From Sphingobium sp. KCTC 72723 (GTDB lineage: Bacteria > Pseudomonadota > Alphaproteobacteria > Sphingomonadales > Sphingomonadaceae): a stretch of DNA of 64,000 nt. The position numbers were made by a program, and so were the translations under genes. The notes beneath the pieces were generated by a model, which was not told where the DNA came from, ran no database searches, and saw only the letters and a list, made by a program, of their open reading frames with translations. Where the stretch lies: the NCBI RefSeq assembly GCF_014280435.1, contig NZ_CP060388.1, forward strand, positions 4,248,001 to 4,312,000, read 5' to 3'. This document shows positions 13,316 through 25,664 of the stretch, piece by piece. Numbering within the stretch: position 1 is the first letter of the stretch; each line of letters begins with the position of its first letter.

Positions 13316-14236
13316 TTAGAGGAACAGAAATTTCGCCAATGCCTCGACTGCGGGGGTTTCTGCCGCGCGGGGGCCAAGCGCCTGCCGGATTTCGACGGCG
13401 GGCAGCGGCATGTCGAGCGCCAGCCGCCTGATACCATCCATCCGCCCCAGATCGCGCGCCAGCGGGCCGAAGGCTGCAAAGATGCCTGCGCCTTCGCGCA
13501 GTGCGGCAAGAATCGCGAACATATTGTCGCTTTCCAGTGCGACGGGACCAGTGTCGGCGCGGCCCCGGACGAGGGCAGCTTCAATGATGGCGCGCATGGC
13601 ATTGCTGCGGTCCAGCGCGAGGGCGGGCGTGATGGCAATGTCGGCGCGCGATACGACGTCGGCGCGGGCAAGCGGATGATTGGTCCCGGCATAGAGGCTG
13701 ACAGGTTCCGACCAGCCATAGCGGGACGGGAGGTCGGCCGGTTCCTCCAGCGCGTAGAAATAGGCGATGTCGGCACGGCCGGACTGCAAGGCGCGCGCCG
13801 CATCCGCTGATGAAAGGACGTGCAGGTCGAGCGCGATAGCGATGTCGTCATTTGCAGCTTCGAACGTAGACAGTGCGTCCTGCACCTGGCCGAATACCTG
13901 GGCGGGGGCGGCCAGGGTGATCGTCTGGCGCGGGGATGCGGGGGCAGGTACGGGGACCGGCAGGGTAGGGGGATCGACCTGGACCGCGTCCCAATCTTCC
14001 GGTGCGTCCTGCGACAACAGCGTCATCGCCTGCGCCGTCTTGCGCCCGGCAGGGGTCAGCCGCGCCGCGCCGGTCAGATCGTCGAACAGACGATAGCCCA
14101 GTCGCATTTCCAGCGAGGCCATATCGCGCGCGATCTGATCTACCGACACGCCCATGTCACTGGCGCAGCGCGTGATGCTGCCTGCCGCCACCATCTGCGC
14201 GAATATGTCCAGCTGGCGCAGGGAGGGGGTATCCAT
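13316..14236 (-). CDS. LysR-family transcriptional regulator
   Basis: A 306-aa regulator. The winged HTH occupies about residues 1-60 (LRQLDIFAQMVAAGSITRCA then LEMRLGYRLFDDLTGAARLT). A linker rich in Pro and Ala at about residues 85-103 leads to the LysR substrate-binding domain (QTITLAAPAQVFGQVQDAL, later GREGAG-like EGAGIFAAFGPLAR). The ATG at 14236 was taken because the HTH follows at the normal distance; upstream in-frame codons add an unlikely Pro/Ser-rich leader. It is transcribed in the same direction as the TonB receptor, 108 bp upstream of that gene's start. Effector and targets unknown. Confidence 0.85.
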   Translation of the reverse strand: MDTPSLRQLDIFAQMVAAGSITRCASDMGVSVDQIARDMASLEMRLGYRLFDDLTGAARLTPAGRKTAQAMTLLSQDAPEDWDAVQVDPPTLPVPVPAPASPRQTITLAAPAQVFGQVQDALSTFEAANDDIAIALDLHVLSSADAARALQSGRADIAYFYALEEPADLPSRYGWSEPVSLYAGTNHPLARADVVSRADIAITPALALDRSNAMRAIIEAALVRGRADTGPVALESDNMFAILAALREGAGIFAAFGPLARDLGRMDGIRRLALDMPLPAVEIRQALGPRAAETPAVEALAKFLFL

Positions 14237-14288: not shown

Positions 14289-15044
14289 TTATCGGCGAGT
14301 GGCGACGATCGCATAGCCCAGGCTGTCGTCTTTGGAACCAAGCCCAAGCGCCATGCTGAGATGGGCCATCAGCAGGAAGACAAGAGTGACGGGGAGCAAC
14401 GGCAGCAGCAGCGGCCATTGGACGAGCATGTAGCGCGATGGTCGCACCATGCGCATGGCCAGCACGATCAGCTTGTTGGCGATGACGGCAATGTCGTTGC
14501 CGCGCTCCGTGATTTGGACGTTGGCGAATGTGCCGAACATCCGCGCCAGCGCGTAGCGGGAGAAGCGGTGGAAATCATAGGGCGCGTAATGCACTCGCGC
14601 GGAAAAGGGGACAGTCGCGATCAGGGTGCCGCCCGGTTTCAGCACCCGCTCCATTTCCGCGATCAGCGCGGCAGGTTCGGGCGCATGTTCCAGCACTTCG
14701 GTACACAGGACCGTATCGAAACTGGCGTCGGGGAAGGGAATATATGCGCCGTCGAAGGGAACGACTTCTGCATTGCCCGCCATGCTGAAGGCGCTGGCCT
14801 GCGGCACGTCTATGCCGGTGTAGCGCACCGATGGCGGCAGCAGGCGGCGATAGGGCATTTCGCCGCACCCCACGTCGAGCAGGTCGCCGCGCAGCGGGGC
14901 AAGGCGGGGTTTGAGGAAGGACCAGATGGTGCCGAGTTGCAGGTCGATGAGGCAGCGCAGGGCAAAGAGGATGCGCGAGAGCATGGACGCATCGAACCGC
15001 ACCGGGATCGGGCGGAAATGTTCGCTGTCGGTCGATGCGGTCAT
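14289..15044 (-). CDS. Class I SAM-dependent methyltransferase
   Basis: A 251-aa protein with a Rossmann-type SAM site: motif I LLDVGCGEMPYRRLLP (about residues 56-71), an acidic residue at GIDVP, and motif post-I FDTVLCTEVLEHAPEP. The C-terminal 40 residues are hydrophobic (PLLLPLLPVTLVFLLMAHLS), suggesting membrane association. Such enzymes often modify lipid-linked or surface sugars. ATG 15044 is favoured over 15059 because GGAAG lies 9 nt before it. It follows a second methyltransferase gene by 40 bp on the same strand, and both are divergent from the transketolase-rfb genes. Confidence 0.85.
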   Translation of the reverse strand: MTASTDSEHFRPIPVRFDASMLSRILFALRCLIDLQLGTIWSFLKPRLAPLRGDLLDVGCGEMPYRRLLPPSVRYTGIDVPQASAFSMAGNAEVVPFDGAYIPFPDASFDTVLCTEVLEHAPEPAALIAEMERVLKPGGTLIATVPFSARVHYAPYDFHRFSRYALARMFGTFANVQITERGNDIAVIANKLIVLAMRMVRPSRYMLVQWPLLLPLLPVTLVFLLMAHLSMALGLGSKDDSLGYAIVATRR

Positions 15045-15084
15045 GCGCCGCACTTCCATCGCGATAGAGGGGCAGGCACTGCGA

Positions 15085-16011
15085 TCACAGCGGCTTGAAA
15101 CCCCAGCTCATATAATTGCCGACATTGACGGACAATTTGCGGCTGTCGAGCCATGATCCACGCAGGGCGCGGGTCAGGCGTTGTTTCAGCGAGTCGGGCA
15201 TCGGCATCAGGCGCAGCCAATAGCTGGGGCGGTAGCGGTTGCGGAAACTGGCCCCGCCGACGGCGTTATAGCCATGCTGCTGCAACAGGCGCCGGGCGCT
15301 TTGGGCCGAGAAAAGCTGCATATGTTCGATATCGACGATCGGCGAGCGTCGCCCCAGCAGGCGGTTGAGCCATGCGCGCCGGTCATGGGTGACGCCCACG
15401 AACACGCCGCCGGGTTTGAGCAGGCGATGGGCCGCCGCCACCAGTGCGCCGGGATCCTGCACATGTTCCAGCGTCATGAAGCAGCAGATGAGGTCGAGGC
15501 TTTCGGGCGCGACATCGGCGTCCTCGAAAATGCCTTCGTAAATCCAGGGGCGGCGATGGGCAGGGGCAGCGGCGATCGCGGCGCTCGACGGTTCGATGCC
15601 GATCAGTCGGGTGAAGCCTGCGTCGCCCAGCCGCTCAAGGAAAGCGCCGGTTCCGGTGCCGATTTCCAGTGCCGAAACGCGGCTGTTCAGCAGCGCCAGC
15701 ACCGGGCGAACCGCAACGGCATAGGCGTCGGCGGCATCCTCCGCTTCCTCCGCGCTGTCATAGTCGGCGGCATGATAGCTGGCGGCGAGCGTGGCGACGG
15801 CGGGTGGCCGATCGACATAGGCCAGGTCGCAGGCGCGGCACCGGACCATGGCGTGGCTCATATATTCCGGCACCTTGCGCGAGGCAAAGCTGGATGCGCT
15901 GACCCGGCTTTCGTCGCGCGTGTCGGACAGGAAGGGTTCGGCCTGATCCGGCCCTGCGCCGCAAAGGGGGCAAGCGCGGGCAGCGATGATGGGTGCGTGC
16001 TTCATGCGCAT
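15085..16011 (-). CDS. SAM-dependent methyltransferase with N-terminal cysteine cluster (sugar C-methyltransferase-like)
   Basis: A 308-aa protein. The head holds two cysteine pairs, CPLCG (residues 14-18) and CRACDLAYVDRPP (from about 58), the putative zinc-binding layout found before the catalytic domain in NDP-sugar C-methyltransferases and related enzymes. The SAM domain has ALEIGTGTGAFLERL (motif I), GIEPSS and CCFMTLEHVQDPG. It is shorter than TylC3-type enzymes (about 400 aa), so the exact acceptor is uncertain. It starts 55 bp from the split transketolase gene on the opposite strand; shared regulation is likely. ATG 16005 is an alternative start. Confidence 0.82.
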   Translation of the reverse strand: MRMKHAPIIAARACPLCGAGPDQAEPFLSDTRDESRVSASSFASRKVPEYMSHAMVRCRACDLAYVDRPPAVATLAASYHAADYDSAEEAEDAADAYAVAVRPVLALLNSRVSALEIGTGTGAFLERLGDAGFTRLIGIEPSSAAIAAAPAHRRPWIYEGIFEDADVAPESLDLICCFMTLEHVQDPGALVAAAHRLLKPGGVFVGVTHDRRAWLNRLLGRRSPIVDIEHMQLFSAQSARRLLQQHGYNAVGGASFRNRYRPSYWLRLMPMPDSLKQRLTRALRGSWLDSRKLSVNVGNYMSWGFKPL

Positions 16012-16066: not shown

Positions 16067-16927
16067 ATGAACGACACAGATTTTATCGCGGCCGCGCCAC
16101 AGGACACACGGTTGCTGGCGCAGCGAATCCGGTGTCAGGCGCTGCGCATGGTGACGCGGGCGAAGGCTTCGCATATCGGATCGGCGCTTTCGATAACCGA
16201 CATCATGGCCGTGCTTTATGGCGGGGCGCTGCGAGTCAGCGCCACTACGCCGGACCATCCTGACCGCGACCGTTTCATCCTGTCCAAAGGTCATGCCTGC
16301 GTCGCGGTCTATGCCGCGCTGGCCGAAACCGGGTTCATCGATCGCACGCTGCTGGACAGCTATGGCACTGACGGGTCGATGCTGATGGCGCATATCAGCC
16401 ATAAGGTGCCGGGGTCGGAATTTTCCACCGGCGCGCTGGGGCATGGATTGCCGTTCGGCACCGGCAAGGCGCTGGCGGCCAAGCGGCGCGGCATGGGGTG
16501 GCGCACGGTCGTTTTGACCAGTGATGGCGAATGGGGCGAGGGCAGCAATTGGGAAGCGGCGCTGTTCGCTGCGCATCATGGTCTGGATAACCTGTTGTGC
16601 ATATTGGATTATAACAAGTTGCAGAGCCTGCGCAGCGTGGACGAAACGCTGCGGCTGGAACCGCTCCATTCCAAATTCGCGGCCTTTGGCTGGGCCGTGC
16701 GCGAGGTGGACGGGCATGATCATGACGCGCTGGCGCAGGCAATGACGGGCGCTGCGTGGGATCCGGGCAAGCCGATGATGCTGATCGCCCATACGACCAA
16801 GGGCAAGGGGGTCAGCTTCATGGAAAACAAGGTGGAATGGCATTACCGCAACCCGACGCCGCAACTGCTGGAAGCGGCACTGGCCGAAATTGAAGGCGAA
16901 GGCCGGGAGGCGCAGGTTCATGCGTAA
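16067..16927 (+). CDS. Transketolase-like protein, N-terminal (TPP pyrophosphate-binding) subunit
   Basis: A 286-aa protein covering the N-terminal third of transketolase. It shows RDRFILSKGHACVAVYA, GALGHGLPFGTGKALA and the thiamine-diphosphate site VLTSDGEWGEGSNWEAALFA ending in ILDYNKLQ. The partner half is the next gene, which overlaps by 8 nt. Split transketolases of this kind occur both as housekeeping enzymes and in secondary or surface-sugar loci, where they move two-carbon ketol units. The following rfbF-rfbG genes favour a sugar-nucleotide role. The ATG at 16067 has GAAGGTG 5 to 6 nt upstream. Confidence 0.9.
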   Translation: MNDTDFIAAAPQDTRLLAQRIRCQALRMVTRAKASHIGSALSITDIMAVLYGGALRVSATTPDHPDRDRFILSKGHACVAVYAALAETGFIDRTLLDSYGTDGSMLMAHISHKVPGSEFSTGALGHGLPFGTGKALAAKRRGMGWRTVVLTSDGEWGEGSNWEAALFAAHHGLDNLLCILDYNKLQSLRSVDETLRLEPLHSKFAAFGWAVREVDGHDHDALAQAMTGAAWDPGKPMMLIAHTTKGKGVSFMENKVEWHYRNPTPQLLEAALAEIEGEGREAQVHA

Positions 16928-17783
16928 TGCCTTTATCGACGAACTGGTGACGCTGGCGCAGGCGCATGACCATATCGCCCTGATCGTCGGCGACCTGGGC
17001 TATAATGTGATCGAGCCATTTGCCGATCGCTTCCCCGACCGTTTCGTCAATGCCGGCGTCGCCGAACAGAATATGACCGGGCTGGCCGCCGGGATGGCCA
17101 GCGAAGGCTATCATGTCTTTACCTATTCGATTGCCAATTTCCCGACATTCCGTTGCGCCGAGCAGATCAGGAACGATGTCGACCATCACCGCCTGCCCGT
17201 GACCGTGGTCGCGGTGGGGGGCGGGGTGTCCTATGGCGCGCTGGGCTATTCCCATCATGCGGTGCAGGATTATGCGCTGATGCGGTCGATGCCCAATATG
17301 GTCATTGCAGCGCCCGGCGATCCGATGGAAACGCGCGCCTGCCTGCGCTGGCTGGTCGCCAATCCCGGCCCGTCCTATCTGCGGCTGGGCAAGGCGGGCG
17401 AACCGCAATTTCATGACGCTGTGCCAGATGTTGCGCCGGGCCGCTGGGTCAGCGTGCGCGACGGCGGGCAGGCCGATGTCATGCTGTCCACCGGCGGGGC
17501 GCTGGGCGCGGCGATCGGGCGGGCGGATGGCCGGGCCGTCTGGTCGCTGCCGCTGTGGGGCATGGCGGCCAAGCCGTTGCAGCCCGACCAGATCGCCCGC
17601 CATGGCAGCGTGACGACGCTGGAGGATCATCTGGCCGATGGCGGCTTTGGTTCCTGGCTGACCGAAGCGGTAGCTGGCACCCCTGCCGCCGCCTGCATCC
17701 GCCCCATCGCGCTGTCGGCGGAGATTTGCGACATGGTGGCCGGTCAATCGACGCTCAACCGGGTCGGCGGGCTGACCCTTTAA
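16920..17783 (+). CDS. Transketolase-like protein, C-terminal (pyrimidine-binding) subunit
   Basis: A 287-aa protein completing the transketolase pair. The catalytic Glu that activates TPP lies in FVNAGVAEQNMTGLAAGMA (about residues 41-59). GGGVSYGALGYSHHAVQDYALM and RLGKAGEP correspond to the pyrimidine and C-terminal domains. GGGAGG-like spacing (GGGAGG at 16905-16910) gives a good ribosome binding site for ATG 16920, inside the end of the first subunit gene. The two subunits should form a heterotetramer in the cytoplasm. Substrate in this context is unknown; a 4-keto-6-deoxy sugar acceptor is the interesting possibility. Confidence 0.9.
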   Translation: MRNAFIDELVTLAQAHDHIALIVGDLGYNVIEPFADRFPDRFVNAGVAEQNMTGLAAGMASEGYHVFTYSIANFPTFRCAEQIRNDVDHHRLPVTVVAVGGGVSYGALGYSHHAVQDYALMRSMPNMVIAAPGDPMETRACLRWLVANPGPSYLRLGKAGEPQFHDAVPDVAPGRWVSVRDGGQADVMLSTGGALGAAIGRADGRAVWSLPLWGMAAKPLQPDQIARHGSVTTLEDHLADGGFGSWLTEAVAGTPAAACIRPIALSAEICDMVAGQSTLNRVGGLTL

Positions 17784-17830
17784 CGGGCGCTTTAACCCTT
17801 TCTTCACCACGCCTGTTCATAGCTGGGTCC

Positions 17831-18607
17831 ATGAAAGCGATCATCCTTGCAGGGGGCTTAGGCACCCGTCTGGCCGAAGAAACATCGGTCCGGCCCAAGC
17901 CCATGGTGGAGATCGGCGGCAAGCCGATCCTGTGGCATATCATGAAGATATACGCCCAGCATGGCGTGACCGAATTCATCGTGTGCCTTGGCTACAAGGG
18001 ATACATGATCAAGGAATATTTCTTCAACTACGCGCTCCACATGTCGGACGTGACCATCGACCTGCGCACCGGCACGACGAATGTGCATCGCAATGCGTGC
18101 GAGGACTGGAAGATTTCGCTGATCGACACCGGCGCGGAAACGATGACCGGCGGTCGGCTGCGGCAGGCGATGCAATATCTGGGCGATGACCAGGATTTCT
18201 GCCTGACCTATGGCGATGGCGTCAGCGACGTGGACATAGGCGCCGCGATCGCCTTCCATCGCGGGCATGGCCGCAAGGCGACCGTTACGGCGGTGCGCCC
18301 GGCCAGCCGTTATGGCCTGCTGGATCTGGATGGGGACCGGGTTGCGGCCTTTGCCGAAAAGCCAGTGGAAGAAGGCGGCTGGATCAATGGCGGCTTCTTC
18401 GTCCTGAACCGGGAAATCGAAAACTATCTCGATAAATCAGATGGTTGCACTTGGGAGCGCGAGCCGCTCGAAGGGCTTGCCGCTGACGGGGAGCTTCGGT
18501 CTTTCTTCCATAACGGCTTTTGGCAGCCAATGGACACGCTGCGCGACCGGCAGATGCTCGAAGGCATGTGGGAGCGGCACGAGGCACCATGGAAAAGCTG
18601 GCACTGA
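17831..18607 (+). CDS. rfbF: Glucose-1-phosphate cytidylyltransferase
   Basis: A 258-aa enzyme that makes CDP-glucose from glucose-1-phosphate and CTP. It opens with MKAIILAGGLGTRLAEET and PKPMVEIGGKPILWHIM, the nucleotidyltransferase signature, and FCLTYGDGVSDVDIG carries the metal-binding Asp. Length equals known RfbF/DdhA (257 aa). The ATG at 17831 begins exactly at the signature. It lies 47 bp after the transketolase pair and overlaps rfbG by 19 nt. CDP-glucose is the entry point to CDP-linked 3,6-dideoxy and branched sugars. Confidence 0.93.
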   Translation: MKAIILAGGLGTRLAEETSVRPKPMVEIGGKPILWHIMKIYAQHGVTEFIVCLGYKGYMIKEYFFNYALHMSDVTIDLRTGTTNVHRNACEDWKISLIDTGAETMTGGRLRQAMQYLGDDQDFCLTYGDGVSDVDIGAAIAFHRGHGRKATVTAVRPASRYGLLDLDGDRVAAFAEKPVEEGGWINGGFFVLNREIENYLDKSDGCTWEREPLEGLAADGELRSFFHNGFWQPMDTLRDRQMLEGMWERHEAPWKSWH

Positions 18608-19680
18608 CATACGGATCGCATCCCGCTGCGCCCGACCCGGCTTTCTGGGCGGGGCGGCGCGTGCTGGTGACGGGCCATACCGGCTTCAAGGGCAGCTGGC
18701 TGCTCGTCCTGCTCGACCTGCTGGGTGCGCGAGTCACGGGCCTGGCGCTGGAACCCGATACCGATCCGTCGATGTTCACCCTGATAAAGGGCGCGTCGCT
18801 ATGCGACCATCATATCGCGGACATTCGCGATGGCGATGCAGTCGCGGCGATCGTCGCGCGCGCGCAACCGGACATCGTGCTGCATCTGGCGGCGCAGCCG
18901 CTGGTGCGCCTGTCCTATGCCGATCCGATCGGCACCTTTGCGTCCAACGTCATGGGGACGGCCCATGTGCTGGAAGCGTGTCGCAACACGCCATCGGTGC
19001 GCACGATCATTTCGGTCACGACCGACAAATGCTATGCCAATGACGGCCGGGTGGAAGGTTATCGCGAAGATGCGCCGCTGGGCGGGCATGACCCCTATTC
19101 CAACAGCAAGGCGTGCGCCGAACTGGTGAGCGCGTGTTGGCGCGACAGTTTCTTTGCCGCGCAGAGCGTCGGACTGGCCACCGCGCGGGCGGGCAATGTC
19201 ATCGGCGGGGGTGACTGGTCCGCCGACCGGCTGGTCCCCGACGCGATCCGTGCCTTTTCCGCCGGACGCCCGCTCCAAATTCGCAATCCCGACGCGGTGC
19301 GCCCGTGGCAGCATGTGCTGGAACCGCTGACCGGCTATCTGCTGCTGGCGGAGCAGCTGGCACGCGACCCTGTTCGATTTGCGCGCGGCTGGAACTTCGG
19401 TCCGGCCCCTGCACATATGGCCAGCGTGCGCGATGTCATCGACAGGCTGGCGGACCAATGGGGCGCGACGCATCCGTGGGAAAGACAGCCGGGCGACCAT
19501 CCGCATGAAGCGGCCATGCTGACGCTGGATTCGACCGCTGCCGCCGATGCGCTGGGCTGGCGTTCGCGCCTGTCGCTCGAACGTGCGCTGGCGATGACTG
19601 CCGACTGGTATCGGGCGGACGACAAGCGCCGGGCGACCCGCGCTCAGGCGGATGATTTCATCGCTCTGGTGTCGGCATGA
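18589..19680 (+). CDS. rfbG: CDP-glucose 4,6-dehydratase
   Basis: A 363-aa short-chain dehydrogenase that converts CDP-glucose to CDP-4-keto-6-deoxyglucose. The NAD site is VLVTGHTGFKGSWL (about residues 24-37). The catalytic Tyr and Lys are in DPYSNSKACAE, and SVTTDKCYAN precedes them, a family-specific block. Length matches RfbG/DdhB (about 360 aa). The ATG at 18589 lies within the end of rfbF. Its product is the common intermediate for paratose, abequose, tyvelose, ascarylose and yersiniose; the dehydrase RfbH needed for 3-deoxygenation is not seen in the window. Confidence 0.93.
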   Translation: MEKLALTYGSHPAAPDPAFWAGRRVLVTGHTGFKGSWLLVLLDLLGARVTGLALEPDTDPSMFTLIKGASLCDHHIADIRDGDAVAAIVARAQPDIVLHLAAQPLVRLSYADPIGTFASNVMGTAHVLEACRNTPSVRTIISVTTDKCYANDGRVEGYREDAPLGGHDPYSNSKACAELVSACWRDSFFAAQSVGLATARAGNVIGGGDWSADRLVPDAIRAFSAGRPLQIRNPDAVRPWQHVLEPLTGYLLLAEQLARDPVRFARGWNFGPAPAHMASVRDVIDRLADQWGATHPWERQPGDHPHEAAMLTLDSTAAADALGWRSRLSLERALAMTADWYRADDKRRATRAQADDFIALVSA

Positions 19681-20588
19681 GCCGCATCCTTGTCACTGGA
19701 GCGAGTGGCTTCGTCGGTGCCGCGGTTGCCGATCTTGCCGCGCGGGAAGGGCATGACGTTACCCTATTGGTCCGCAACCCTGATGCCCCGCGCGTCGTGG
19801 CGCTTGCCCGCAGTTGCGCCATAGCGGTCGCCGATCTGGCTGATCGCGCGGCGGTGCGTGATGCCATGCAGGCGCGGCCCGATATCGTGATCCATTCCGC
19901 CTGGGAAGGCGTGGGCGGTCCCAACCGGGCAGGCGATGTGCAACTCGACAATATCCGCACGACCGTAGCGCTGCTGGACGAAGCGATCGCGGCGGGAGCC
20001 AGCCGCTTCATCGGCATCGGCAGCCAGGCCGAATATGGCCGCCACGACCGGCGCATCGACGAAGATGCAGCGACGACGCCCTTCCTGCTCTATGGGGCGG
20101 CCAAATTATCCGCTTTCCACCTGACGCGGCAGCGCGCGGCGGAGGCGGGGATCGGCTTTGCCTGGCTGCGGCTGTTTTCACCCTATGGTCCCGGTGACAA
20201 TGCCAACTGGCTGATCCCGTCCGTCGCCGCGCAGATCATTGCGGGCCGGACGCCGCGCACCAGCGCGGGGACGCAGAAGTGGGATTATCTGCACATTGAC
20301 GACACGGCGCGCGGCATATTGGCCGCTGCGCTGACAGATGGCGCGCAGGGCGTGTTCAACCTGTCGAGCGGGCGGGCGGTGACGGTGCGCTCCATCGTCG
20401 AACGGATCCGCGACATTGCGCATCCGGGCCTGCCGCTGACATTTGGCGAGATCCCCTTTGTTCCCAACCAGATCATGCATCTGGAAGGGGATAACAGCCG
20501 CCTGACCGCCGCGACCGGATGGACGCCGGGCATCGGAATCGAGGACGGCCTCATCACGGTGGTCGATGCGTTGAGGCAGGCGGCATGA
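19677..20588 (+). CDS. NAD(P)-dependent epimerase/reductase (extended SDR)
   Basis: A 303-aa extended SDR enzyme. The NAD(P) motif is RILVTGASGFVGAAVADLA (residues 3-21). The active-site Tyr and Lys occur as YGAAK and a conserved LFSPYGPGDNANWLIPS follows. It overlaps rfbG by 4 nt. Its place suggests it reduces or epimerises the 4-keto-6-deoxy (or branched) CDP-sugar, as RfbJ/RfbS do in abequose and paratose pathways. Exact stereochemistry cannot be read from sequence. Confidence 0.88.
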   Translation: MSRILVTGASGFVGAAVADLAAREGHDVTLLVRNPDAPRVVALARSCAIAVADLADRAAVRDAMQARPDIVIHSAWEGVGGPNRAGDVQLDNIRTTVALLDEAIAAGASRFIGIGSQAEYGRHDRRIDEDAATTPFLLYGAAKLSAFHLTRQRAAEAGIGFAWLRLFSPYGPGDNANWLIPSVAAQIIAGRTPRTSAGTQKWDYLHIDDTARGILAAALTDGAQGVFNLSSGRAVTVRSIVERIRDIAHPGLPLTFGEIPFVPNQIMHLEGDNSRLTAATGWTPGIGIEDGLITVVDALRQAA

Positions 20589-20971
20589 TGGCCCTGACGC
20601 GCGATCGCCGTTTCTGGGGTTATCTGGTCGCGGGGGGCGTCAACACGCTGTTCGGCTATGGCGCCTATAGCGTGCTGGTGCTGCTGGGCGTGCTGCCCCA
20701 TGTCGCGGTCGTGCTGGGTGGACTGGCGGGGATCGCGTTCAATTTCCTGACCACCAGCGTCGTTTTCCGGTCGCATGATGTCCGCCGCCTGCCCCGCTTT
20801 CTGCTGGTCTATGCGGTGATGTTCGGCCTCAACATCCTGTTGCTCGACATGCTGATGCGCGCGGGGCTTGGGCCGTTGGCGGCGCAGGCGCTCGTGCTGC
20901 CCATTTTTACGCTTACTTTCCTTGTCATGCGCCGCTTCGTCTTTGCGGCCTTGCCGGAGCAGACCCCATGA
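20585..20971 (+). CDS. gtrA: GtrA-family membrane protein
   Basis: A 128-aa protein with four hydrophobic segments: FWGYLVAGGVNTLFGYGAYS (about 9-28), VLLGVLPHVAVVLGGLAGIA, LLVYAVMFGLNILLLDML and LVLPIFTLTFLVMRRFVF. This is the GtrA layout. GtrA is thought to flip undecaprenyl-phosphate sugars made by GtrB. ATG 20585 overlaps the SDR stop (ATGA); ATG 20588 is also possible. It is followed with a 4-nt overlap by a GtrB-like glycosyltransferase. Confidence 0.9.
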   Translation: MMALTRDRRFWGYLVAGGVNTLFGYGAYSVLVLLGVLPHVAVVLGGLAGIAFNFLTTSVVFRSHDVRRLPRFLLVYAVMFGLNILLLDMLMRAGLGPLAAQALVLPIFTLTFLVMRRFVFAALPEQTP

Positions 20972-21993
20972 AAACCATCTCCATCGTGACGCCCTGCTTC
21001 AACGAGGCGGATAATGTCGAGGCGTGCCATGGCGCAGTCGCCGCGCTGTTCGCGCCGGGCGCGCCGCTGGAAGGCTATGGCCGCGAACATATATTCGCCG
21101 ACAATGACAGCAGCGATGGCACGCAGGATATATTGCGCGCGTTGGCGGCGAGCGATCGTTCGGTCAAGATCATCCTGAACGCGCGCAATTACGGCCCGTT
21201 CCGGTCCAATTTCAACGCCCTGCGCGCCGCGACCGGGGATGCGGTCGTCGTGTTCCTGCCCGCCGACCTGCAAGACCCGGCGGAAATGATCCCCGAATTT
21301 GTGGCGCTGTGGGAAAGCGGCGTGGAAGTGGTCGCGGGCGCGCGGGTCAACCGGCAGGAAAGCCTGACGCTGCGGGCGTGCCGCGCCATATTCTATCGCA
21401 CCGTGCGTCATTTGAGCGATATCGACATTCCATTGAATGTCGGCGAATTTCAACTGCTGGACCGCAAGGTTTGGGAAGCGGTGGTCAGCCATGACGACCA
21501 TTATCCCTATATTCGCGGCATCATCGCGTCGGTCGGTTTTCGCCGCGTCATCGTCCCCTACACATGGGCGGCGCGCAGCGCGGGCATATCCAAGAATAAC
21601 CTGCCGCGCCTGATCGACCAGGCGCTCAATGGCATTTTCAGCTTTACCAACGTGCCGATGCGCCTTTGCACCTTTGCCGGGGTCGTCATGTCGGCGCTGT
21701 GCCTGCTTTATGCGGTGGCGTCGGTTGGCCTGTACATGATCTGGCCGACGATGGCCCCGCGCGGCATGATGACGCTGATCGTCGCTCTCTTCTTCCTGTC
21801 GGGCGTGCAACTCGCCTTTCTGGGGATATTGGGCGAATATGTGACGTCGATCCATGCACAGGTGCGCAAGCGCCCGCTGGTGGTGGAGCGCGAGCGGATC
21901 AATATGGACGAGGCCGTTGCCGCCGCCGACCTTCCCGTCGTGGATAATCCCGTCCACGCCCTTCAGCGCAAGCTGGACGCAGAGGCGGCGTGA
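20968..21993 (+). CDS. GtrB/DPM1-like family 2 glycosyltransferase
   Basis: A 341-aa polyprenyl-phosphate glycosyltransferase. The GT-A fold shows VTPCFNEADNVEACH (residues 6-20), FADNDSSDGTQDIL, and the DxD-like FLPADLQDPAEM. Two C-terminal membrane spans follow (VVMSALCLLYAVASVGLYMI and TLIVALFFLSGVQLAFLGIL). This is the GtrB design: it loads a sugar from a nucleotide donor onto undecaprenyl phosphate on the cytoplasmic side. The adjacent CDP-sugar genes suggest a CDP donor, which is inference. Overlaps of 4 nt on both sides show strict operon coupling. Confidence 0.9.
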   Translation: MKTISIVTPCFNEADNVEACHGAVAALFAPGAPLEGYGREHIFADNDSSDGTQDILRALAASDRSVKIILNARNYGPFRSNFNALRAATGDAVVVFLPADLQDPAEMIPEFVALWESGVEVVAGARVNRQESLTLRACRAIFYRTVRHLSDIDIPLNVGEFQLLDRKVWEAVVSHDDHYPYIRGIIASVGFRRVIVPYTWAARSAGISKNNLPRLIDQALNGIFSFTNVPMRLCTFAGVVMSALCLLYAVASVGLYMIWPTMAPRGMMTLIVALFFLSGVQLAFLGILGEYVTSIHAQVRKRPLVVERERINMDEAVAAADLPVVDNPVHALQRKLDAEAA

Positions 21994-23513
21994 CACCGTC
22001 GCCGGGGCAGATCGCATCGGTCGACGCCCATCCTGACCCACGCGCATCTGTGTCCCTGCGCACGCTGACGGCGGCGCTGGTCGCTCTGTTCGCGTTTGAC
22101 AATATCGCGCTGCTAGCGCTGTTGGGCCTGTCGCCGCCGGTCGTCGCGGCGCTAGCGCTGGTTTTGCCCGGTGCGTTGGCCTTTTTGTGCTGGAAAGCCA
22201 TGCCTGGCGTGGCGCGGGTCAGTTTGCGCACGCTGCTGTTCTGCCTTGCGATCGCATTTGTCCTGTTGATGCTGGGGGGGGAGGGGCGTCTTTTCTATGC
22301 TCCGCCCGACTGGCAGATTCGCGATGCGGTGCTGGCCGACATGGGCAATCATCGCTGGCCCTTTGCCTATGGGATCGATGGGAAAGAGCAGCTTTTGCGC
22401 GCGCCGGTCGGCATCTATCTGGTCCCCGCGCTGTTGGGCGGGGCCAGCCAGATGGGGCGCGACTGGACGCTGCTGGCGCATAACGGGCTGATCCTTGGCC
22501 TGTTGCTGGCGCAGGGGGCGGTCCTGTTCGACGGCGCGCGCGCGCGGCTGATCGCGCTGGTCATATTCGTGATGTTCAGCGGGTTCGACATATTGGGCGT
22601 GGTTCTGGCAGAGGCGGCGACCGGGGACGCGAACTGGAACCATATCGAACGCTGGGCCAGCAATTATCAGTATAGCGCCCATATCACCCAGCTTTTCTGG
22701 GCGCCGCAACATGCGCTGGCGGGATGGACCGTGGCGCTATTCTATCTGTTGTGGCGCACCGGGCGCGCGCCGGTCGGCCTGTTCGCCGCCAGCCTGCCGC
22801 TGGTCGCGCTCTGGTCGCCGCTCATCCTGTTCGGCGCGCTGCCCTTTGCGGTGTTCGCGGCCATTCGCGTGCTGGCGACGCAGGACTGGCGCGCGCGCGA
22901 TGTGCTGATCGCCATGTTCGCCGCGCTGCTGGCGGTTCCCGCGCTGGTCTATCTGTCCGTGGACGCAGCGGCCATCGGCGCGCATCTGCGCCCGCCTACG
23001 CTGCTGGGCTATATCCTCATCCTGCTGTTCGAAATACTGCCCTTCCTCCTGCCGTTGCTGAGTGATCGGACCGGCGGCACCGACCGGGTGACGATCCTGA
23101 TCGCGGGGCTGTGCCTGTTGCTCATGCCGCTATGGACCATGGGCATCAGCAATGATTTCCAGATGCGTGGTTCCATCATGCCGCTGGCGCTGGTCGCTAT
23201 CGCCTTTGCCCAATGGGCGGGGCGGGTGGACGTGCGGGGGCAGAAGATGGCCGTGGTGGCGATCATGGCGTTGGGTTCGGTGACGGGCATCGTTGAAATC
23301 TCGCACGCTTTCCGCTTCGCCGCGTCGCCCCCGCCGCTCTGTTCGCTGGCGGGCGCGTGGCAGCGGCAGGCGATCAGCGGCGTGCCTTACGCATCCTATC
23401 TGGCGGCGCGCGATGCTTTTCCGGTCGGCATCCTTCCCAGGGACCGCGTCGGCGGCGCAACGCCAGCGACCTGCTGGGACCGGCGATGGGACATGGCGGG
23501 GGCGCGGCCATGA
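21990..23513 (+). CDS. Polytopic membrane protein, possible GT-C-type glycosyltransferase
   Basis: A 507-aa protein I cannot place in a named family. GTG 21990 overlaps the previous stop. About ten hydrophobic segments are visible. A polar loop after the second or third span reads DWQIRDAVLADMGNHRWPFAY, with acidic residues where GT-C enzymes carry their catalytic Asp. A short soluble tail ends CWDRRWDMAGARP. In the position of GtrC, the polytopic enzyme that moves the lipid-linked sugar onto a surface polymer in the periplasm, this role is plausible but unproven. Confidence 0.7.
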   Translation: MTPSPGQIASVDAHPDPRASVSLRTLTAALVALFAFDNIALLALLGLSPPVVAALALVLPGALAFLCWKAMPGVARVSLRTLLFCLAIAFVLLMLGGEGRLFYAPPDWQIRDAVLADMGNHRWPFAYGIDGKEQLLRAPVGIYLVPALLGGASQMGRDWTLLAHNGLILGLLLAQGAVLFDGARARLIALVIFVMFSGFDILGVVLAEAATGDANWNHIERWASNYQYSAHITQLFWAPQHALAGWTVALFYLLWRTGRAPVGLFAASLPLVALWSPLILFGALPFAVFAAIRVLATQDWRARDVLIAMFAALLAVPALVYLSVDAAAIGAHLRPPTLLGYILILLFEILPFLLPLLSDRTGGTDRVTILIAGLCLLLMPLWTMGISNDFQMRGSIMPLALVAIAFAQWAGRVDVRGQKMAVVAIMALGSVTGIVEISHAFRFAASPPPLCSLAGAWQRQAISGVPYASYLAARDAFPVGILPRDRVGGATPATCWDRRWDMAGARP

Positions 23514-25432
23514 CATCGTCGCTGACCCTGATCGCGCTCTATGGCCTGCTGCTGGCGACCGTGCTGCTGACGCCCTATGCGTCGCTTTGCCTTGGCGCGC
23601 GGCTGGAACGGCACTGGTCGCCGGTCTGGATCGGGATATGTGCGGTGATGATGGCGGGTGCGCTGGCGCTGACGATCGCGCGCGATGGCAAGGTGCTGCT
23701 GCTCTGCGCCTTCCTGTTGTTGCCGCTCATCGGCCTTGGCATGGGCGCGCTGCTGGGCGGGATGGCGGCGATATTGCTGTTCGTCACGGTGACATGGTGG
23801 ACGGCCGACCTGCAACTGGGTCCGGTGGCGGGCAGCATCTTTGTCCTGCTGGCGCTGTGGGCCGGGCTGCTGGCACGGCGGGGCGGGCGGCCTTCGCCCG
23901 ATATTGCCCTGCGCTGGCCGGTGCTGCTGTGCGTCCTCATCGGCCTTGGCGCCGGGCTTTTGACGGCGCCGTTCGAATCGACCGACCCGATCCTGTCGGC
24001 CTGGCATCACTGGAGCGCCTATCTGTCGCCGGTGGAAGCATGGCGGGGCGGGGGCGTTCCTTATCGCGACTTTCCGATTCAATATGGGCTTGGCCCGACC
24101 GCTTTGCTGAAAGCGGCGTGCGGCAATGATTGCTGGCGCGGGCTATATTGGACGGCGATCAGCGCCAATGCGCTCTATTTCGCGGTGCTTGCCGGGTGCG
24201 TGCTGATCCTGACCATCGGGGCGTCGCGCGGGCTGCGGTGGCTGGGGCTGGTCGCGCTGTTTTGCGCCTGCTTCATCTGGACCGGCTATCCCGTGCAATT
24301 TGCCGGGCCAGCAATGACGCCGTCGGTCGCGGGGCTGCGCTTCATGTCGATCGCTGCCTTGTTGCTGCACATTCTGCGGGCCGAACATCGTGATGCGCCG
24401 CGTGACCGGGTGGGGCATGGCATCTGGCTGATCAGCCTGTTCTGGTCGGTCGAAGCGGGTCTGTTCGCCACGATATTATGGTGGCCCTATCTTGCGTTGC
24501 GTGCTGCCGGGGCGGCGCAGGGCGGGCGTGGCATCATGGTCGCACTGTTGCGCATCGTGGCGCAGGGGGCGTGTGCGCTGGCGATCGGGGTGTCGGCGCT
24601 TGTCCTGACATTATGGCTGGTGTCGGAAGGCGGCATCACCGCAACGGACTTTTTCGCCTATGTCCAGCATCCGCCCGGAACACGGCCGGTCAATGGCACA
24701 GGCACGATCTGGATCGCGCTGGCGTCGGTCGCGCTGGCGCTGCCGTTGCTGGCGCGACAGGGATATTCGGCGCGCGGCCGGTCGCTTTATGCCTGCATCA
24801 CTGCCTTCGTCGTGGCCGGAACCTATTATATCAGCCGCAGCCACGACAATAATATCCTCAATCTCTTTCCGCTGCTGGTCCTGCTGCTGCTGGCGATCGC
24901 CGCGAACCGGAAGGACAGTGGTGATGCTTCGCCCGGTTTTGCGGGCGGTTTCGTCATCGTCACGCTGGCGGCCATGGTCGCGTTCGTGGCGACATTCAAT
25001 TTCGGGCCTTGGCGCGAAGGCATTGCGCGGACCGGATTGCTGACGGTCGGGCCGGATCGGCTGCTGGCGCATCTGACGCCCCGGCGGGGCGACATTCCCG
25101 TCGTGACGCCACCCGATGGCGTCGCGGGCCTGGACTATCTGCGCGCGCGCAATGCGGGGATGGTGGTCCTGTTCGACAGCCGCAACGTCATGCCCAGGGG
25201 ACCGGGCGGGACGGCATGGACCGGGGTCAACAGCATCGCCAATTTCGCGCCTTTGCCGCGCCCAATGATCCTGCACTATATGGCACGCGGAGCCACGGCC
25301 TATCGTCGGCCGGGCTGGATATTGGCCGACGCGGCGCATCGCGACTGGGTGCGCGATTTCCAGAGCGTCTATGCCATCGGGGAGCAGCACCGCTTTGGCA
25401 GCTATACCGCTTATTATATGGTGCCGCGCTAA
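23510..25432 (+). CDS. Polytopic membrane protein with periplasmic tail, possible GT-C-type glycosyltransferase
   Basis: A 640-aa protein, last of the sugar operon, overlapping the previous gene by 4 nt. At least eleven hydrophobic segments are seen, starting LTLIALYGLLLATVLLTPYA. A loop reads HHWSAYLSPVEAWRGGGVPY followed by RDFPIQYGLG, a pattern common in uncharacterised polysaccharide GT-C-like proteins. The last about 130 residues form a soluble tail (from LLTVGPDRLLAHLTPRRGD). Function is inferred from context: transfer or polymerisation of the lipid-linked sugar. It shares general plan but no obvious sequence identity with the preceding protein. Confidence 0.7.
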   Translation: MTSSLTLIALYGLLLATVLLTPYASLCLGARLERHWSPVWIGICAVMMAGALALTIARDGKVLLLCAFLLLPLIGLGMGALLGGMAAILLFVTVTWWTADLQLGPVAGSIFVLLALWAGLLARRGGRPSPDIALRWPVLLCVLIGLGAGLLTAPFESTDPILSAWHHWSAYLSPVEAWRGGGVPYRDFPIQYGLGPTALLKAACGNDCWRGLYWTAISANALYFAVLAGCVLILTIGASRGLRWLGLVALFCACFIWTGYPVQFAGPAMTPSVAGLRFMSIAALLLHILRAEHRDAPRDRVGHGIWLISLFWSVEAGLFATILWWPYLALRAAGAAQGGRGIMVALLRIVAQGACALAIGVSALVLTLWLVSEGGITATDFFAYVQHPPGTRPVNGTGTIWIALASVALALPLLARQGYSARGRSLYACITAFVVAGTYYISRSHDNNILNLFPLLVLLLLAIAANRKDSGDASPGFAGGFVIVTLAAMVAFVATFNFGPWREGIARTGLLTVGPDRLLAHLTPRRGDIPVVTPPDGVAGLDYLRARNAGMVVLFDSRNVMPRGPGGTAWTGVNSIANFAPLPRPMILHYMARGATAYRRPGWILADAAHRDWVRDFQSVYAIGEQHRFGSYTAYYMVPR

Positions 25433-25590: not shown

Positions 25591-25664
25591 GCGGGTATAG
25601 CTCAATGGTAGAGCACTAGCCTTCCAAGCTTGTGATGCGGGTTCGATCCCCGCTACCCGCTCCA
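25591..25664 (+). tRNA. tRNA-Gly (anticodon TCC)
   Basis: Acceptor arms GCGGGTA and TACCCGC pair perfectly. D arm GCTC/GAGC, anticodon loop CTTCCAA (anticodon TCC), T arm GCGGG-TTCGATC-CCCGC, discriminator T and encoded CCA end. The anticodon stem CTAGC/GCTTG has a U-U mismatch at its second pair. It lies between the end of the sugar operon and a LacI regulator gene; no integrase is nearby. Confidence 0.96.

Follow-up and report, generated by a model that had tools for sequence, protein, structure and literature searches.

A split transketolase in a CDP-glucose operon of Sphingobium sp. KCTC 72723: a candidate route to branched surface sugars

The window analysed here is a 64,000-nucleotide stretch of the Sphingobium sp. 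KCTC 72723 genome (NZ_CP060388.1, positions 4,248,001 to 4,312,000). It contains a nine-gene set (16067–25432) that brings together a transketolase split into two chains (TK-N and TK-C), the CDP-glucose enzymes RfbF and RfbG, an extended short-chain dehydrogenase/reductase (SDR), a GtrA-like protein, a family 2 glycosyltransferase (GT2) and the proteins MEM1 and MEM2. From its gene content, it is reasonably probable that this set encodes a pathway in which the transketolase branches a CDP-sugar, together with a system that delivers the product to the cell surface. This reading is based on the linkage of the pair to RfbF and RfbG, its grouping in a tree, the specificity of the linkage in a control sample and the presence of a separate full-length transketolase in the genome. 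It is also based on a gene slot filled by an SDR or an aminotransferase, an SDR/TK-N fusion, the kept catalytic residues, the GT-C fold predicted for MEM1 and the precedent of YerE.

The operon and its split transketolase

All nine open reading frames (ORFs) were found on the plus strand when read from the bases, in the order given by the sequence-only reading. The transketolase N subunit TK-N, with the thiamine diphosphate (ThDP) pyrophosphate-binding domain (16067–16927), matches PF00456 Transketolase_N with 124 bits, and the C subunit TK-C, with the pyrimidine-binding domain (16920–17783), matches PF02779 Transket_pyr with 104 bits, both over the Pfam cut-offs. RfbF, glucose-1-phosphate cytidylyltransferase (17831–18607), and RfbG, CDP-glucose 4,6-dehydratase (18589–19680), exceed the cut-offs of their NCBIfam equivalog models (TIGR02623, 413.4 bits versus 300.25; TIGR02622, 457.3 bits versus 278.45). 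Their proposed identities are thus confirmed, and the operon has the enzymes of the CDP-4-keto-6-deoxyglucose pathway. Downstream are the SDR (19677–20588; PF01370, 144 bits, over the Pfam cut-off), the GtrA-like membrane protein (20585–20971; PF04138, 50 bits, cut-off 26.1), the GT2 (20968–21993; PF00535, 83 bits, cut-off 23), MEM1 (21990–23513), which begins with a GTG codon, and the polytopic membrane protein MEM2 (23510–25432), read as an ORF. The close packing described earlier also holds. TK-C starts with an ATG at 16920 and overlaps TK-N by 8 nt, RfbF and RfbG overlap by 19 nt, and all junctions from RfbG through SDR, GtrA, GT2 and MEM1 to MEM2 are 4-nt overlaps; the sole exception to this range of 4 to 19 nt is the junction of TK-C and RfbF, which lie 47 nt apart.

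RfbF makes CDP-glucose and RfbG converts CDP-glucose to CDP-4-keto-6-deoxyglucose, which is established family chemistry. In the proposed pathway, these two enzymes would supply the keto sugar and, with a ketose phosphate or hydroxypyruvate as the donor, the split transketolase would add a two-carbon ketol unit to the C-4 ketone of that sugar. With this presumed donor and this presumed carbon of attack, the presumed product would be a tertiary alcohol with a 4-C-(hydroxyacetyl) group. The SDR is proposed as the branch-ketone reductase, which would convert the new ketone to a 1,2-dihydroxyethyl branch. Judging from their families, the GT2 would act as a polyprenyl-phosphate sugar transferase that loads the sugar onto undecaprenyl phosphate, and GtrA would be the flippase of the lipid-linked sugar. 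MEM1, a GT-C glycosyltransferase by its predicted fold, would then release the sugar from the lipid carrier and attach it, outside the membrane, to a glycan or protein. Some relatives have RfbH, which may first strip the 3-hydroxyl, and others a C-methyltransferase-like gene; an aminotransferase would replace the SDR in a few of them.

Both chains match transketolases and keep the ThDP-binding and catalytic residues, so that the pair can be taken as the split-gene transketolase, with N and C chains, that had been suggested. The closest solved relative of TK-N is the N chain of the Carboxydothermus split transketolase (6yak, E 5e-63), and that of TK-C is the C chain in 6yaj (E 9e-37). Numbered with E. 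coli TktA as the ruler, H26, H66, H100, D155, G156, N185 and H261 of TK-N are conserved in 56/56 family rows, E411 of TK-C in 57/57 rows and H473 wherever it could be read (56 rows). At four positions that we take to be substrate contacts or neighbours of contacts, the window pair differs from the ruler, with G461, L469, H474 and K520. The corresponding changes are common in the family (H461 to G in 53/57 rows, D469 to L in 50/57, Q474 to H in 54/57 and R520 to K in 50/57). The loss of D469 was rejected as a mark of a ketone acceptor, because D469 is also lost in sugar-catabolic split transketolases, and for this reason the residue differences are given little weight. The combination of G461 and K520 was likewise rejected as proof, as the same pair occurs in L074 and L115–L124, which have no RfbF or RfbG; K520 itself is absent in some linked loci (R in L110–L112, N in L114).

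The Carboxydothermus hydrogenoformans enzyme (6yaj/6yak) resembles the window pair in its two-chain build and is the closest solved structure. It lacks the linker of about 70 residues found in full-length enzymes and accepts bulky aldehydes, and the authors of the structure tied the loss of the linker to space for a bulkier acceptor (PMC7661550). It differs from the window pair in that its ketol transfer is to aldehydes (PMC7661550) and, in an alignment read by eye, in that it keeps H461 and D469, which are G and L in the window pair.

Linkage to RfbF and RfbG among relatives

When genome contigs were scanned with TK-C, 56 loci were obtained, with TK-N in 55/56, RfbF in 48/56 and RfbG in 47/56. 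Nine loci are without the full RfbF and RfbG set (L037, L045–L047, L055 and L059–L062). Among them, L037 and L046 are short contigs (4.6 and 6.0 kb), L047 begins within an RfbH-like gene at the contig end, and L055 has RfbF only and was counted as linked. L059, L060 and L062 are distant, with 31–32% identity, and L062 is DXS-like. In the alphaproteobacterial contigs L045 and L061, the pair stands beside a DegT-type gene, and the neighbouring ORFs look, by eye only, like flagellar motor genes. The linked loci span Pseudomonadota, Verrucomicrobiota, a Paenibacillus and a Terracoccus. Two of them are on plasmids: a Methylovirgula plasmid with the order RfbF-RfbG-SDR-RfbH-TK-N-TK-C and a convergent GT2-GtrA, and a Paenibacillus cellulosilyticus plasmid with TK-C, RfbF, RfbG and a fusion of SDR and TK-N. 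No RfbF or RfbG was found in the annotation of the other eight plasmid stretches, one of which, L068, is unannotated and gave no match to either.

The control sample consisted of 398 Pseudomonadota genomes, of which 82 have a TK-C relative at E ≤ 1e-25. Forty control stretches were taken, 20 from the top of the list and 20 picked by hand further down, not at random. TK-N and TK-C matches are adjacent in all 40 of these stretches. RfbF and RfbG occur together in seven (L104, L105, L107, L110, L111, L112 and L114), all within the 11 best-scoring stretches, and in 0/29 of the lower-scoring ones. Three of these 29, namely L086 (3.2 kb), L119 (5.9 kb) and L126, with TK-N at base 289, are on contigs or edges too short for a judgement. 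Of the four misses among the 11 best-scoring stretches, L106 ends just upstream of TK-N, and L108, L109 and L113 are without RfbF and RfbG. This distribution indicates that the linkage belongs mainly to this branch and not to split transketolases in general. The Paenibacillus locus L066, which is linked at 39% identity, is an exception to the rule that only close relatives are linked. Methyltransferase and GT2 matches lie alongside the pair in L116 and L121, two of the more distant split transketolases without RfbF or RfbG (L115–L124).

The tree has 104 rows and leaves out L062 for its DXS-like nature, two full-length transketolases, L058, in which TK-C is cut at the contig end, and L068. Eight rows were labelled by hand as truncated (L037, L046, L047, L086, L106, L108, L119 and L126); the label is too lenient for L108, which has 8.9 kb upstream of TK-N without RfbF or RfbG. 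One group of 57 rows (support 80) includes 51 with RfbF and/or RfbG nearby, 4 truncated and 2 unlinked. On this tree, the two-state linkage label can be explained by 5 changes. In the group tables the changes number 9 and 8, versus means of 34.5 and 31.6 after shuffling, and 0/500 shuffles were as low. The sequence-only reading had named conservation of the pair without rfbFG in relatives as something that would speak against it, and among the nearest relatives this is seldom the case (51/57 linked).

Equally, the pair was not to be the only transketolase of the genome (4.43 Mb, two contigs). A second one exists far from the operon; it is full-length, in an open frame of 697 aa that matches Transketolase_N with 445 bits. 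A sample of 149 genomes of the family, including two of the same genus besides the organism itself, was also searched. TK-C at E ≤ 1e-40 was found in the organism's own genome only, and RfbG in 28/149. These counts make the pair an accessory feature, in whose absence RfbG is often used. The phylum sample adds two family members, one of which (G383, locus L104) has the pair with RfbF, RfbG and RfbH. Among the protein matches listed, the best named ones of TK-N and TK-C are from sphingomonads, such as Sphingopyxis and Sphingobium.

Accessory genes and competing explanations

Variation around the pair was counted in 54 linked loci with RfbF, RfbG and both chains, 47 from the contig scan and 7 from the control sample. 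RfbH is present in 34/54 with a floor of 41% identity; a looser count of 38 takes in DegT proteins with identities near 30%. Six of the 54 loci have a C-methyltransferase-like gene, although in L014 and L027 the match is only 25–27% identical to the query. The 14/54 loci with neither gene include the seven of the window's own type (L007–L012 and L050). In the window genome itself, the RfbH model NF011936 finds 0 matches genome-wide, and the same model scores 750 and 736 bits on the RfbH of two relatives. The 3-dehydrase of the CDP-3,6-dideoxyhexose pathway is thus absent from this genome, as had been stated. The argument that a 3,6-dideoxy sugar is less likely holds for this genome but does not extend to near relatives, because operons of the same kind carry RfbH between GT2 and MEM1 (L013, L017, L026 and L104) or after TK-C (L019).

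The SDR position is also variable in its occupant. An SDR match was found in 47/54 linked loci, and a gene able to consume a ketone, either SDR-type or a DegT aminotransferase, in 52/54. In many loci the SDR lies directly before TK-N; the place is taken by a DegT aminotransferase in L028, L039, L049 and L053, which have no SDR match, and by another SDR-type protein in L040. Such a reductase-or-transaminase slot is expected after a ketone-making enzyme, but it is also compatible with a transaminase acting on the 4-keto group. The DegT aminotransferase is fused to a GNAT acetyltransferase domain in L028, L039 and L053 (NCBIfam was run on L028 and L053), and this fusion is a possible sign of an amino-branched sugar variant.

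A second fusion bears on the SDR itself. In the 635-aa ORF of Paenibacillus cellulosilyticus, residues 19–361 match the window SDR (34%) and residues 381–631 match TK-N (44%). Its neighbours are TK-C, RfbF, RfbG and a protein whose C-terminal domain is of the C-methyltransferase type. The fusion connects the SDR with the transketolase in one pathway. The earlier proposal of ketol transfer onto a CDP-keto sugar is supported in part: judged from gene content, both the variable accessory genes and the SDR/TK-N fusion fit it.

The same proposal has several observations against it. L045 and L061 are inside the tree group and have no RfbF or RfbG in their available DNA. Six linked rows (L065, L066, L110–L112 and L114) fall outside the main tree group, and in G365 (locus L134), a genome of the organism's own family, the split transketolase is more distant and has no RfbF or RfbG beside it. 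No SDR was found in L105 and L107 in the sequence search of the linked loci. The 4-keto group could itself be the substrate of the aminotransferases in L028, L039, L049 and L053, and no ketone would then be left for the transketolase. The loss of D469 is not special to the group, since the sugar-catabolic Agrobacterium locus L070 also has L. The best NCBIfam matches of the GT2 are below their cut-offs (PgfS, 192 bits versus 500; PRK10714, ArnC-type, 116 bits versus 529), and L068, which has similar delivery genes, gave no RfbF or RfbG match in 18.7 kb.

A different explanation is that the transketolase makes some other building block, and that an ordinary CDP-6-deoxyhexose results from simple reduction of the 4-keto group by the SDR. 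The SDR does resemble GalE-type and other sugar SDRs acting at C-4. Split transketolases are also located near glycan-type genes without RfbF or RfbG in L068, L074, L113 and L117 (in L117 from ORFs read by eye only), and one lies with aminotransferases in an exopolysaccharide cluster of Actinoplanes (PMC13390465). However, the pairing with RfbF and RfbG recurs within one tree group, the SDR is fused to TK-N in Paenibacillus, and by Pfam and NCBIfam the nine genes include neither a kinase nor a second nucleotidyltransferase. This explanation is regarded as unlikely.

More doubtful still is a pathway of the same outline in which the ThDP enzyme decarboxylates pyruvate in the manner of DXS and adds an acetyl unit, which would give a 4-C-(1-hydroxyethyl) sugar of the yersiniose type. 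DXS enzymes are the PDB matches of TK-C that follow the split transketolase, and the ThDP enzyme behind yersiniose A works with pyruvate and a CDP-4-keto sugar (PMC12247030). In contrast, the best and much stronger matches of both chains are to the Carboxydothermus split transketolase, and for both the best NCBIfam match is to PRK05899.2-5, a transketolase model whose full-length cut-off is not reached. A spare housekeeping transketolase that entered the sugar operon by chance, which the intact catalytic residues would allow, is very improbable in view of its patchy occurrence in the family (1/149 genomes), the RfbF/RfbG linkage in several phyla and the separate full-length enzyme.

Ketol branching of the CDP-sugar, the preferred reading, would by analogy parallel the YerE route with a different enzyme family. 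YerE and ErwE are ThDP enzymes of a superfamily other than transketolase that add to CDP-3,6-dideoxy-4-keto-glucose (PMC12247030). In yersiniose and erwiniose branching, a ThDP enzyme acts on a CDP-4-keto deoxysugar within a pathway derived from CDP-glucose, and the branch ketone is reduced later (PMC12247030, PMC4753412), in line with what is proposed for the operon; the ketoreduction of yersiniose was uncharacterised in 2016, and in paulomycin the AKR-family protein Pau7 performs it (PMC4753412). YerE is a single protein of the decarboxylase superfamily, whereas the present enzyme is a two-chain transketolase and the window type has no RfbH. The TPP_enzyme_N domain, presumably present in YerE, has two matches in the genome (C1:612233 and C1:2531636), both far from the operon. 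The ThDP enzyme of the operon is the transketolase pair, and no YerE-like decarboxylase-superfamily ThDP enzyme is found in the cluster.

Split transketolases have also been proposed to branch keto sugars in miharamycin and amipurimycin, where they are uncharacterised in vitro and their roles are pending (PMC12247030). A 2025 review describes 13 mined candidates (Krug et al.), all Streptomycete and none characterised in vitro (PMC12247030). These two-gene enzymes are like the present pair in being proposed to act on a keto sugar; they lie in natural-product clusters, unlike the CDP-glucose clusters of other bacteria described here. No report of a split transketolase paired with CDP-glucose genes was recognised among the literature matches listed, which are open-licence papers, and PMC9834719, when searched for the term, does not mention transketolase.

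More tentatively, the clusters may represent modular CDP-sugar pathways across phyla, in which a two-chain transketolase, instead of an enzyme of the YerE type, would build surface sugars of a new class, marked by a hydroxylated two-carbon branch. RfbH or C-methylation would be optional prior steps, and the slot would lead to an alcohol with an SDR or to an acetylated amine with an aminotransferase fused to an acetyltransferase. Because the reactions of RfbF and RfbG are known, their pairing with a candidate transketolase makes the question of a ketone acceptor for transketolases directly testable. If the reading is true, it would provide biocatalysts that form tertiary alcohols, along with bacterial surface sugars of a family not seen before.

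Proposed delivery genes and genomic surroundings

The last genes of the operon resemble the gtr and ArnC-ArnT lipid-carrier modules, with GtrA, a GT2 whose likeness to PgfS and ArnC, and with it its putative lipid-carrier role, comes from NCBIfam matches below cut-off, and a protein of predicted GT-C fold side by side. They differ from these modules in the proposed CDP-derived sugar, and the final genes of the set can be exchanged for others. Neither Pfam nor NCBIfam gives a match for MEM1 or MEM2 at E ≤ 0.001. The predicted model of MEM1 has a GT-C fold, an assignment that rests on VIA-align, and the model of MEM2 is unusable (mean pLDDT 53.8). MEM2 is present in 6 sphingomonad loci of the window type (L008–L012 and L050). 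Neither MEM1 nor MEM2 has a match in the L007 locus, a Sphingopyxis metagenome-assembled genome and the nearest relative. A different ORF of 556 aa without a Pfam match (L007:7185–8855) is in the place of MEM1 there. On the Methylobacterium aquaticum plasmid L068 (8165–14163), TK-N, TK-C, SDR and GT2 occur with relatives of MEM1 (35%) and of the methyltransferase MT2 (40%), which indicates that the module can occur with another sugar source, as RfbF and RfbG gave no match there. In the window genome, RfbG has a single match over the cut-off and GtrA PF04138 has three, one of which is the gene of the operon.

Two S-adenosylmethionine (SAM) methyltransferase genes are transcribed away from the operon on the minus strand. 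MT1 (15085–16011; PF13489, 93 bits) is divergent from TK-N and adjoins the operon in L007–L011 and L050; sugar O-methylation is a possible role. MT2 (14289–15059; PF08241, 67 bits) has a weaker link to the operon, which it adjoins in L007 and L012. A tRNA-His called by ARAGORN at 14064–14150 (anticodon atg) falls within an ORF that looks like a LysR gene and was discounted as probably false. A tRNA-Gly is located at 25591–25664, about 160 nt past the last gene of the operon; together with the patchy distribution of the pair, it could mark the boundary of an island.

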